Below are positions 45,262-47,691 of a stretch of 64,000 nucleotides of DNA, piece by piece. Origin of the DNA: Devosia sp. Leaf420 (lineage in GTDB: Bacteria; Pseudomonadota; Alphaproteobacteria; Rhizobiales; Devosiaceae); the NCBI RefSeq assembly GCF_001425445.1, contig NZ_LMQU01000015.1, forward strand, positions 1 through 64,000. The letters are read 5' to 3'. Numbering within the stretch: the first letter of the stretch is position 1; the number at the start of each line of letters is the position of its first letter. The notes under the pieces were generated by a model. It was not told where the DNA came from. It made no database searches and was given only the letters and a program-made list of their open reading frames with translations. A program made the translations under genes and the position numbers.

Positions 45262-46446
45262 TCAGGGCTGGGGCGAGTGCACCATGCCATGGGGTTGTTC
45301 GGCGTTCGGCATATGCGTCAGGAGTTCGGTATTGGGCGCCAGCGGTTCTGTCCGCACGGCATCGCCGTAGAACACCGTGTGTAGCCCCCAATAGCTTCCC
45401 GCAATGATCACCATGGCAGCGAGGAGACCCGCAGGCACTGCGCCAATTGCCGGCATCAGCGTTTTGAGGCGTGGGCCCGATGGCGTCGGATCGGCAGCTA
45501 TCAGGAACAGCGTGCCCATTATCAGGGCGTGACCGACGAGATCGATACGGCCGAAGGGATAGACCGCGGTGGTGAAAATCACCAGCAGCGCCACGGCCGA
45601 CAGTCGGCGAATCAACGGCGTCCAAAGAAGGCCAAAACCCATGGTGAATTCAGCGACGCCCGCCATGGGAATGAACGTGTCCCGCGGCATGCCGAAGGTC
45701 AGGTAGGGCCGTTCTTCGACAAGCGGATAGAACCATTCGGCATAGGCGAACTTTTCAAGGCTCGACCACATCAGCGCAATGGCGACACCCCAGCGAAGCA
45801 CGGCAAATCGGTGCTTATACCACTTGCTCTCCGGAGCGCTGGCAAGCGCCAGATATCCGGCGACGCCGACGCCAAGCGCCAGATAGTCGAGCAGGTGGAA
45901 GAAGTCATAGTCGCGCAGCGCAATGACCCAGAGCCCGATAATGCCCGCCGCAGCCAGCGGCATGGTCCGGCGCGAGAATACCAGCAGCGCGATCAGCAAT
46001 TGCAGCCACGAGACCCACTCATTGGGCGTTTGCAGGTCTGGCGTCAGATAAACCCCGCCAACGGCAAAGATCGCGACGAAGAAGGCACCGATAATGGCCC
46101 GCATGAAATCGTCCGACCGGGTCCAGAGCGGCGCGCTCGCCCAGTCAAGTCCGCTGCTGACCGCGCTGCCAAACTTGCCTTTTGCAATGACGACCGTTGC
46201 CGCGAAGAAGGCAAGGACCAGCACAATACCGAGCCAGAACCAGCCATTGGCCAGCGTGCTGGTGATCGGGGCAGGCGCAGCGCCCACCACGTAGGGTGCA
46301 AACCATTTGACATGGGCATAAGCGGGCGTTGCGGCGCCGAACCCCGCGAGAAGAACGCCGAGCGGTAGGCCCAGGGAAAGCCGGCGTCCAGCCCCCCTGC
46401 GCAGTGTGGCGACGGTTCCTTGGTGCACTATCACTTGCGACTCCAT
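45262..46446 (-). CDS. DoxX-like multi-spanning membrane protein
   Basis: About 394 residues. An N-terminal signal-like segment ends AYAHVKWFAPY, followed by about ten hydrophobic helices; the C-terminal half (FAYAEWFYPLVEERP, MPRDTFIPMAGVAEFTMGFGLL) resembles DoxX/terminal-oxidase-associated proteins. Function unknown. The ATG at 46,446 is preferred over 46,479 or 46,500 because the FNR box at 46,503 then sits at a normal activator distance. It is divergent from a DUF305 gene, so both may answer to low oxygen or metal stress. Confidence 0.7.
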   Translation of the reverse strand: MESQVIVHQGTVATLRRGAGRRLSLGLPLGVLLAGFGAATPAYAHVKWFAPYVVGAAPAPITSTLANGWFWLGIVLVLAFFAATVVIAKGKFGSAVSSGLDWASAPLWTRSDDFMRAIIGAFFVAIFAVGGVYLTPDLQTPNEWVSWLQLLIALLVFSRRTMPLAAAGIIGLWVIALRDYDFFHLLDYLALGVGVAGYLALASAPESKWYKHRFAVLRWGVAIALMWSSLEKFAYAEWFYPLVEERPYLTFGMPRDTFIPMAGVAEFTMGFGLLWTPLIRRLSAVALLVIFTTAVYPFGRIDLVGHALIMGTLFLIAADPTPSGPRLKTLMPAIGAVPAGLLAAMVIIAGSYWGLHTVFYGDAVRTEPLAPNTELLTHMPNAEQPHGMVHSPQP

Positions 46447-46502
46447 CAGTTCTGCAACGACTGCAGCTGAGGCCGGCATAAACGTGCATCGCCCATGCAT
46501 CC

Positions 46503-46516
46503 TTGATCTCGATCAA
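46503..46516. promoter_or_regulatory. FNR/FixK-type box in a divergent promoter
   Basis: TTGATCTCGATCAA, an exact match to TTGAT-n4-ATCAA. Its centre (46,509.5) is 41.5 bases from a start point near 46,551; the fitting -10 CATAGT is at 46,539-46,544 (DUF305 gene). In the other direction a start near 46,468 has TATGCC at the -10 position (DoxX-like gene). Confidence 0.75.
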
Positions 46517-46577
46517 ACGGCTCGGGAAATGGGCGCGGCATAGTCGGGCTAGCAACGAGGCCCAGGAGTCTGAGAAA

Positions 46578-47024
46578 ATGGACGTGATGAAGTGGGGTGC
46601 GGCAGGAATTCTGGCGGTCGCTTTTGTCGGTGCGCTGTTCGTGCGCGATCAGCCTGCGGAGGCTGCGGCTCAACTCCCTCTGCCGCCCATTTGCGGCGAT
46701 GCCAGTGCCGACCATGGTGGCGCTTCGATGCAGGAGCACATCGACATGATGGCAGCCAATGCCGATCCTGCCCATGCGGCGCTGCTCCAGACCATGGAGC
46801 CGATGCATTCGGATATGATGCGTGGCATGACGCCGACCGATTTTCAGACCGCCTTCGTGTGCAGCATGATCCCGCACCATCAGGGCGCGGTCGCGATGGC
46901 AAGGGTCGCCCAGCAATATGCCAATGATCCCTGGATCAAGATGTTTGCTCAGGAAATCATCACTACGCAGCAGGTGGAAATCCGCCAGATGCAAGCCTGG
47001 CTGGCGCGCTTGCCGGCTCAATAG
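46578..47024 (+). CDS. Exported DUF305 protein (CopM-like)
   Basis: A 148-residue periplasmic helical protein. Signal/anchor 5-25, then the DUF305 core: MQEHIDMM, FVCSMIPHHQGAVAMARVAQ and EIITTQQVEIRQMQAWL, rich in His and Met that can bind copper as in CopM. ATG 46578 follows AGGAG by 9 bases. Probable role: metal handling in the envelope. Its promoter carries the FNR box. Confidence 0.85.
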   Translation: MDVMKWGAAGILAVAFVGALFVRDQPAEAAAQLPLPPICGDASADHGGASMQEHIDMMAANADPAHAALLQTMEPMHSDMMRGMTPTDFQTAFVCSMIPHHQGAVAMARVAQQYANDPWIKMFAQEIITTQQVEIRQMQAWLARLPAQ

Positions 47025-47063: not shown

Positions 47064-47636
47064 CTAGGCGGCCCATTGCTGAGCGGCCATTTCGGACAGT
47101 GCCTCGAACACTGCTGGGCTCCGCTCGAGCCGCGCGACCGTTCGCGCGCCCTCGAGCGAGGCCACCAGCGCGGCTGCCGCAGACCTTGCCTTCCCGCCAC
47201 TCAGCCCGCACCCCTCGAAATGCCGCCTTATGATCTCGGTCGAGGTCGCAAAGCCTTGGGCCACCCGTTGTGTGAGGTCGGCATCGAGGGCCGGCAGTTC
47301 ATTAGCAAGGTTCTGCATCAGGCATCCATATCGGAAGTCGGAGGCCTTCATGTCGGCGGCGAACGACCCAATCAGCCTTTGCGTAAAGCCCAGCGCATCG
47401 CCTGTTGTCTCCGCCGACACTGCCTGAATAACGGCAATGCGCTGCGCGACATAGCGATCGATCGCCTCTTCTGCCAACTGCACCTTCCCCTTGGGAAAAT
47501 GAAAATAGAACGAACCCTTGGGCGCCCCGCTTTCCTCAAGGATTTGGGTGAGGCCGGTGGCCGTATAGCCCTGAAGACGAAACAGGCGAATAGCTGCAGC
47601 GATGGCATTTTCACGGGCGTCGGTTTTGCGGGTCAT
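47064..47636 (-). CDS. TetR-family repressor (next to epoxide hydrolase)
   Basis: A 190-residue regulator: HTH AIRLFRLQGYTATGLTQILEESGAPKGSFYFHF, then a C-terminal ligand domain with a Cys-containing CLMQNLANEL, close to the LfrR/YxaF group. ATG 47636 follows AGGAC; a longer start at 47,666 would run into the operator. It is divergent from the epoxide hydrolase, and the dyad between them is its likely site. Confidence 0.9.
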   Translation of the reverse strand: MTRKTDARENAIAAAIRLFRLQGYTATGLTQILEESGAPKGSFYFHFPKGKVQLAEEAIDRYVAQRIAVIQAVSAETTGDALGFTQRLIGSFAADMKASDFRYGCLMQNLANELPALDADLTQRVAQGFATSTEIIRRHFEGCGLSGGKARSAAAALVASLEGARTVARLERSPAVFEALSEMAAQQWAA

Positions 47637-47661
47637 ACGGTGTCCTACCACAAGAGCCTTG

Positions 47662-47691
47662 ACCATACTATACCAACCGCCATAGTATGGT
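47662..47691. promoter_or_regulatory. TetR operator: 10-bp perfect inverted repeat
   Basis: ACCATACTAT (47662-47671), 10-base spacer, ATAGTATGGT (47682-47691), between the TetR and epoxide hydrolase genes. Confidence 0.7.

Follow-up and report, generated by a model that had tools for sequence, protein, structure and literature searches.

The question raised by this Devosia locus is what controls two divergent genes, one for a membrane protein that is DoxX-like and one for a DUF305 protein of the periplasm, between which lies a symmetric FNR-type site. Inspection of the window, by which we mean the whole stretch of 64,000 nucleotides that was analysed, placed the site and the two genes as follows:

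45262–46434, minus strand: doxX-like gene, 390 aa from the proposed GTG start at 46434, with a likely signal peptide followed by HVKWF.
46578–47024, plus strand: DUF305 gene, 148 aa, CopM-like, with an N-terminal membrane anchor or signal as judged by eye.
46503–46516, no strand assigned: FNR/FnrL-type box TTGATCTCGATCAA, dyad centre at 46509.5, common to both predicted promoters.

A preliminary description of this DNA had connected the two genes with oxygen limitation through a perfect FNR/FixK site; the sequence, coordinates and symmetry that it gave for the site are all correct. Here we propose, with a probability of about 0.7, that the intergenic region is a bidirectional FnrL promoter that was ancestrally also under NsrR control, that nsrR was lost in the window's lineage and that the gene pair encodes a membrane–periplasm unit linked to nitric oxide (NO) and low oxygen. 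This reading is built on sequence comparison, from which we infer the binding, the activation, the signal, the order of gain and loss and the biochemical role.

The preliminary assignment of the two proteins, a DUF305 protein of the CopM type and a DoxX-like membrane protein, was borne out, whereas the copper handling that had been attributed to the former is suggested by its membership of the DUF305 family. The protein matched DUF305 (PF03713) with a score of 69.4 against a cut-off of 27. It resembles the CopM/DUF305 copper-binding proteins in that it matches CopM structures (PDB 5fej, 5ffa and 7vw0) over 62–81 residues, and in its conserved methionine and histidine positions: in an alignment of 19 rows, M97, H100, H101, M107 and M138 were invariant and M76, H77 and M80 nearly so. 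It differs from CopM in that its score to the NCBIfam CopM model (NF049983), 84.4 bits, falls under the cut-off of 90, and in its association with a DoxX-like membrane protein, as a separate partner or in a fusion. For its partner, 'DoxX-like' is a description only, because the window protein did not match DoxX (PF07681) or any other Pfam family; DoxX itself was matched by 1 of 41 members of the doxX-like family (E 0.0028). A likeness to the DoxX/MauE families is seen in weak matches of 19 of the 41 members to the MauE model (best E 1.1e-5). HVKWF is invariant in the family and, by eye, appears to follow directly on a signal peptide. The predicted structure of the doxX-like protein (mean pLDDT 74) gave no Foldseek match under E 0.001 (best E 0.19). 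In VIA-align it aligned best with the membrane domain of the vitamin K-dependent carboxylase (GGCX), with Z about 10 (8.4–10.2 for 14 GGCX rows, against 5.4 for the next row), which is middling for a helical bundle; the closeness of the predicted fold to GGCX is suggestive only, and no function is transferable from it.

To weigh the box itself, we counted its pattern and compared it among relatives. Within the window, TTGATCTCGATCAA is the only perfect TTGAT-N4-ATCAA site; the scan gave one perfect and two one-mismatch matches, a number that is not unusual, since at least three were obtained in 25 of 100 shuffles. The whole genome contains seven perfect sites, against none for a reversed-pattern control and about 0.9 expected from the base composition of the window. 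Six of the seven lie inside predicted ORFs, called with a simple script (one of the six, L079, is a weak ORF of 101 aa), and TTGATCTCGATCAA is the only one outside. With six other perfect sites within ORFs, the genome counts alone would not prove that the box functions, and the same six sites speak for a chance palindrome, the seventh of a set without function. We consider such a coincidence very improbable, because the position and spacing of the box are conserved across the genus and changes in its half-sites stay within TTGAY/RTCAA in 15 of 16 loci. It is this conservation across the loci of the genus, and not the counts, that supports a function of the box.

The conservation was followed from a search for the doxX-like protein in 101 genomes, 61 of them from the same genus, which revealed the protein in 19, all among the 61. 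We then compared the intergenic regions of 16 Devosia-type loci in which the doxX-like gene faces a DUF305 gene, near relatives included (L058/L060 and L066/L067). Co-occurrence of both genes and the box in relatives, a check proposed in the preliminary description, was found in these loci: TTGA-N6-TCAA is present in 16 of 16 intergenic regions and TTGAY-N4-RTCAA in 15, and variants such as TTGACCTGGGTCAA have both half-sites altered. Mean information was 1.85 bits in the ten core columns of the box, of which those of TTGA and TCAA could not vary, because the alignment was anchored on TTGA-N6-TCAA; it was 1.27 bits in the adjoining 23 columns, the NsrR stretch discussed below, and 0.38 bits elsewhere. 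The anchoring used neither the NsrR stretch nor the -10 positions. At L069, one of the 16, the DUF305 frame is broken downstream of the box, and the box and the doxX-like gene are kept; at two further loci, L065 and L068, both are present without DUF305, and an aldo-keto-reductase-like gene takes its place. The fused-type loci of the genus (L071–L073) have no box upstream of the doxX-like gene. Scanning of 86 doxX-like loci revealed an FNR-type box in 20, 12 of which belong to this genus, against 0.4 matches expected from shuffles; in the other 66 the scanned stretch held no FNR box. A second doxX-like copy, in two frames and probably decaying, lies beside a DUF305 gene at G001:C1:11785-12752 (L059).

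Around the box, the comparison pointed to the following predicted elements:

46475–46480, minus strand: TATGCC, a -10-like hexamer for the doxX-like gene, with its first base at a distance of 29.5 bp from the centre of the box.
46539–46544, plus strand: CATAGT, a -10-like hexamer for the DUF305 gene, with its first base likewise at 29.5 bp from the centre of the box.
46441–46444, minus strand: Shine–Dalgarno sequence GGAG of the doxX-like gene, followed in 16 of 16 loci by a start codon after 6 bases.

Both hexamers are weak in sequence, and a consensus scan of 46380–46640 returned no sigma-70 promoter and no terminator. On the doxX-like side, TA stands at +29.5 in 14 of the 16 loci and one base nearer in the other two; on the DUF305 side, A2 and T6 occur together at +29.5 in 11 loci, and in five the pair is not at the exact place. 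A spacing of 29.5 bp both ways fits an activator at -41.5 of both genes, with transcription predicted to start near 46468 (doxX-like) and near 46551 (DUF305), and so supports the placement of the box at about -41.5 in both directions that had been put forward earlier. The start codon chosen there for the doxX-like gene, ATG at 46446, is probably off by 12 bases: GGAG-N6-[GAT]TG occurs in 16 of 16 loci, whereas an ATG at the 46446 position, ahead of GGAG, occurs in 10 of 16 and would overlap the ribosome-binding site, so that the gene more likely starts at GTG 46434. A longer frame from 46500 would be excluded if transcription starts near 46468.

Which protein could occupy the box was approached through the CRP/FNR proteins of the window's genome. 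The HTH_Crp_2 model revealed seven proteins over the cut-off, of which five are strong; the remaining two are weak and look like helix-turn-helix proteins of other kinds. By eye, a single strong protein, G000:C9:394269, combines four FNR-type cysteines with an E-x2-SR helix (ETVSR); the helices of the other four are VHVNRT (in two proteins), VHANRT and, in a protein (L020) with two N-terminal cysteines, VHTNKT, which is not of the FNR type. The best model for G000:C9:394269 is FnrL, at 202 bits and under the cut-off of 300, against 118 bits to FixK. FixK, an option named in the preliminary description, is not supported by these scores and was rejected as the named regulator; the activator is likely an FnrL-type protein. 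The core of the box is also found in the DNR consensus CTTGATnnnnATCAAG (PMC1274295), as would suit another sensor of the CRP/FNR family, for example of the NO-sensing DNR type, in place of the oxygen sensor FnrL. We judge such a sensor improbable, given that the alphaproteobacterial NnrR motif in the same source, TTTGCG-N4-CGCAAA, differs, that only one of the five strong proteins has the FNR-type helix, together with the four cysteines, and that L020, which carries N-terminal cysteines, has another helix.

The wider pattern TTGAY-N4-RTCAA revealed a possible second site for the FnrL-type protein. It has 20 matches in the genome, against five for the reversed-pattern control, and four of the 20 lie outside the script-called ORFs: the doxX-like/DUF305 box, a box upstream of hemA, a site 111.5 bases upstream of an ORF that by eye resembles rplM, and a site 96.5 bases upstream of an ORF without an NCBIfam match at E 1e-10. 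The hemA box, TTGACATAGGTCAA (G000:C9:150130-150143, L238), is of the FNR type and lies 48.5 bases from the called start of hemA and 90.5 from a likelier start, and hemA is a probable second FnrL target in this genome. In Rhodobacter sphaeroides, FnrL binds upstream of hemA, and, in the results of that study drawn on here, the hemA transcript was unchanged in an fnrL mutant (PMC4263372). Genes for cbb3 oxidase and NorB were considered as a positive control for FnrL and set aside: the four COX1-family matches were CtaD, CyoB, CtaD and one weak partial match, and the window's genome yielded no identifiable NorB or cbb3 subunit.

Taken from sequence, the link of the gene pair to low oxygen is strong, and the earlier proposal of oxygen limitation holds in so far as an FNR-type site is common to both genes. 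It covers only half of the control that we propose, because an NsrR-type operator, and with it the association of the family with NO detoxification and NsrR-like genes, had not been spotted:

46480–46504, no strand assigned: NsrR-type palindrome AAACGTGCATCGCCCATGCATCCTT, two mismatches to RATGYAT-N5-ATRCATY.

This palindrome lies between the box and the -10 of the doxX-like gene and touches the edge of the box. In hcp promoters, the NsrR motif gATGyAT-N5-ATrCATc has been reported on the downstream side of FNR sites (PMC1274295). Relatives carry AAAGATGCATTTCAGATGCATCTTT and similar sequences, and the palindrome of the best relative (G027) shares 21 of 23 bases with the ytfE site of E. coli CFT073, a ChIP-supported NsrR site (PMC5320621). 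Exact ATGYAT-N5-ATRCAT was matched seven times in 23 chosen genomes, four times at the doxX-like promoter, twice inside ORFs and once between ORFs elsewhere. When one mismatch was allowed in the 86 doxX-like loci, five loci matched, against 0.8 matches expected; two are from Devosia, and in the others (L138, L157 and L161) the match falls between divergent Rrf2 and truncated-hemoglobin-like genes.

A candidate regulator is encoded nearby in relatives, where an Rrf2 gene, NsrR-like, follows the doxX-like gene in 12 genomes of the genus. For the three linked proteins tested, the best subfamily model was NsrR (NF008240), at 117–123 bits and under the cut-off of 182, with RirA second by 12–27 bits, and for that reason we call them NsrR-like only; the name is also tentative because a 2005 survey, in the part drawn on here, gives NsrR in alphaproteobacteria only for R. 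capsulatus E1F1 (PMC1274295). When a score above 105 bits against the G027 protein was taken to define NsrR-like, a threshold chosen once the gap was known, 16 of the 61 genomes of the genus had such genes: 12 of the 19 with a doxX-like gene and 4 of the 42 that lack one (Fisher p 2.9e-5, with no correction for kinship). In the window's genome, three Rrf2 proteins exceeded the cut-off and none was NsrR-like: one is RirA (216 bits, cut-off 193), and the best model for the other two is CymR, at 73 and 87 bits (cut-off 195).

In a tree built from 31 doxX-like proteins, with ambiguous deep branches, the box-bearing genus type formed one well-supported group of 18, comprising 12 with a linked nsrR and six without. 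Linkage of nsrR required 4 changes on the tree, against 8.6 in shuffles (3 of 500 were as low), and the simplest interpretation is that the window's line lost nsrR. The state of the operator varies with the linkage: mismatches to the NsrR motif number 0–3 in the 12 loci with linked nsrR, against 2, 4, 4, 5, 9 and 10 in the six without (one-sided p 0.003), the window being the one with 2. In the second copy of D. crocina the operator is degraded although NsrR is encoded elsewhere in that genome. Because the search of the window's genome turned up no NsrR, the NsrR-type operator there looks orphaned and is probably a relic of a lost regulator.

The surroundings of doxX-like genes were surveyed within 3 kb in the best 80 of 206 named loci. 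There, DUF305 was fused to the doxX-like protein in 34 (for example, L049:5905-7392 and L050:5923-7380; fusion is seen in many lineages), divergent in 10, otherwise placed in one and not found in 35. An Rrf2 gene was a neighbour in 28 of these 80 loci, a truncated hemoglobin, Hmp or NnrS gene in 34, and one or the other in 45; in the remaining 35, genes of both kinds were absent from the 3 kb. Among 60 control loci from the window's genome, with Rrf2 loci left out, there was no match to Rrf2, truncated hemoglobin or NnrS and two to Hmp. The doxX-like gene stands beside trHb-NnrS-Rrf2 on a Comamonas plasmid and beside Hmp-Rrf2 on an Agrobacterium plasmid; other examples have no such neighbour.

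These data also bear on a simpler account, in which a copper-handling pair is controlled purely by low oxygen, without any link to NO, and the palindrome is a site for another factor or the core promoter of the doxX-like gene. Such an account would suit a genome in which neither NsrR nor a full-length Hmp was found (matches were only to the reductase part of Hmp), a DUF305 protein that matches CopM structures, and the occurrence of Cu-ATPase-like matches in 11 and multicopper-oxidase matches in 3 of 107 loci scanned (duplicates included). We nevertheless think it unlikely: the palindrome fits both the NsrR consensus and the E. coli site, it is more intact where nsrR is linked, an nsrR-like gene follows the doxX-like gene in those 12 genomes, and the window's genome has one truncated hemoglobin, the sole one found (G000:C10:31293-31586, L248), although not at the doxX-like locus. 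The link to NO is good for the family but weak for the window's genome, and in the reading that we prefer, FnrL activation with ancestral NsrR control, the least secure element is a role in NO for that genome.

Under FnrL activation with ancestral NsrR control, the intergenic region would be a bidirectional class-II promoter of the FNR type. At low oxygen, the [Fe-S] FnrL-type protein would bind the box at -41.5 of both genes and would switch on the two of them jointly, one for the DoxX-like protein of the membrane and one for the DUF305 protein of the periplasm. Ancestrally in the genus, a repressor of the NsrR type, with its gene directly behind the doxX-like gene, would bind the palindrome between the box and the doxX-like -10, so that full expression would require NO as well as low oxygen. 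The lineage of the window would have lost nsrR and kept an operator without its regulator, and FnrL is probably the only control that is left there. The two proteins would most likely act as a redox or metal-handling unit of the membrane and periplasm in the response to NO and low oxygen.

The arrangement resembles the enterobacterial hcp-hcr promoter, in which an FNR site is accompanied by gATGyAT-N5-ATrCATc on the gene side (Rodionov 2005, PMC1274295). Compared with hcp-hcr as presented there, the Devosia box is common to two divergent genes and is abutted by the palindrome, the targets are the doxX-like and DUF305 genes, and the window's genome yielded no NsrR. A single box that serves divergent promoters is likewise found at the FnrL/Dnr sites of Dinoroseobacter shibae (hemA3/dnrE and nirS/nosR2), with the hemA3/dnrE box at 41.5 and 39.5 bp (PMC5398030). 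The D. shibae sites described in that source differ in the genes that they serve and in the second regulator, which is a Dnr protein there and would be a repressor of the Rrf2 type here.

A further-reaching reading, which we hold as a possibility at somewhat less than even odds, is that DoxX-like/DUF305 constitutes an undescribed NO/low-oxygen module, controlled by FnrL and an operon-encoded NsrR and perhaps quinol-fed and copper-dependent, and that the window represents the state after loss of the repressor, a shift from NO-plus-oxygen to oxygen-only control. The idea of copper and quinol draws on the invariant histidine at the predicted mature N terminus and on the conserved methionines and histidines of DUF305. 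The word 'undescribed' reflects literature searches that revealed no paper joining DoxX with DUF305, none on Devosia with FnrL and, for DoxX with nitric oxide and NsrR, nothing on this gene pair; in a broader search, neither DUF305 nor CopM was among the matches listed. For these membrane proteins, a family without a name in which fusion to DUF305 is frequent, the locus offers a testable physiological context, low oxygen and NO, and relatives with and without NsrR provide a natural series for tracing what becomes of an operator once its regulator is gone.

Outside the genus, 16 Microvirga loci (L120, L122, L124–L130, L132–L137 and L173) have the doxX-like gene followed by a truncated-hemoglobin-like gene, with no Rrf2 within 3 kb. 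In the window itself, a TetR gene occupies 47064–47666, and a palindrome noticed by eye beside its start, ACCATACTAT...ATAGTATGGT (47662–47691), is perhaps its own operator.
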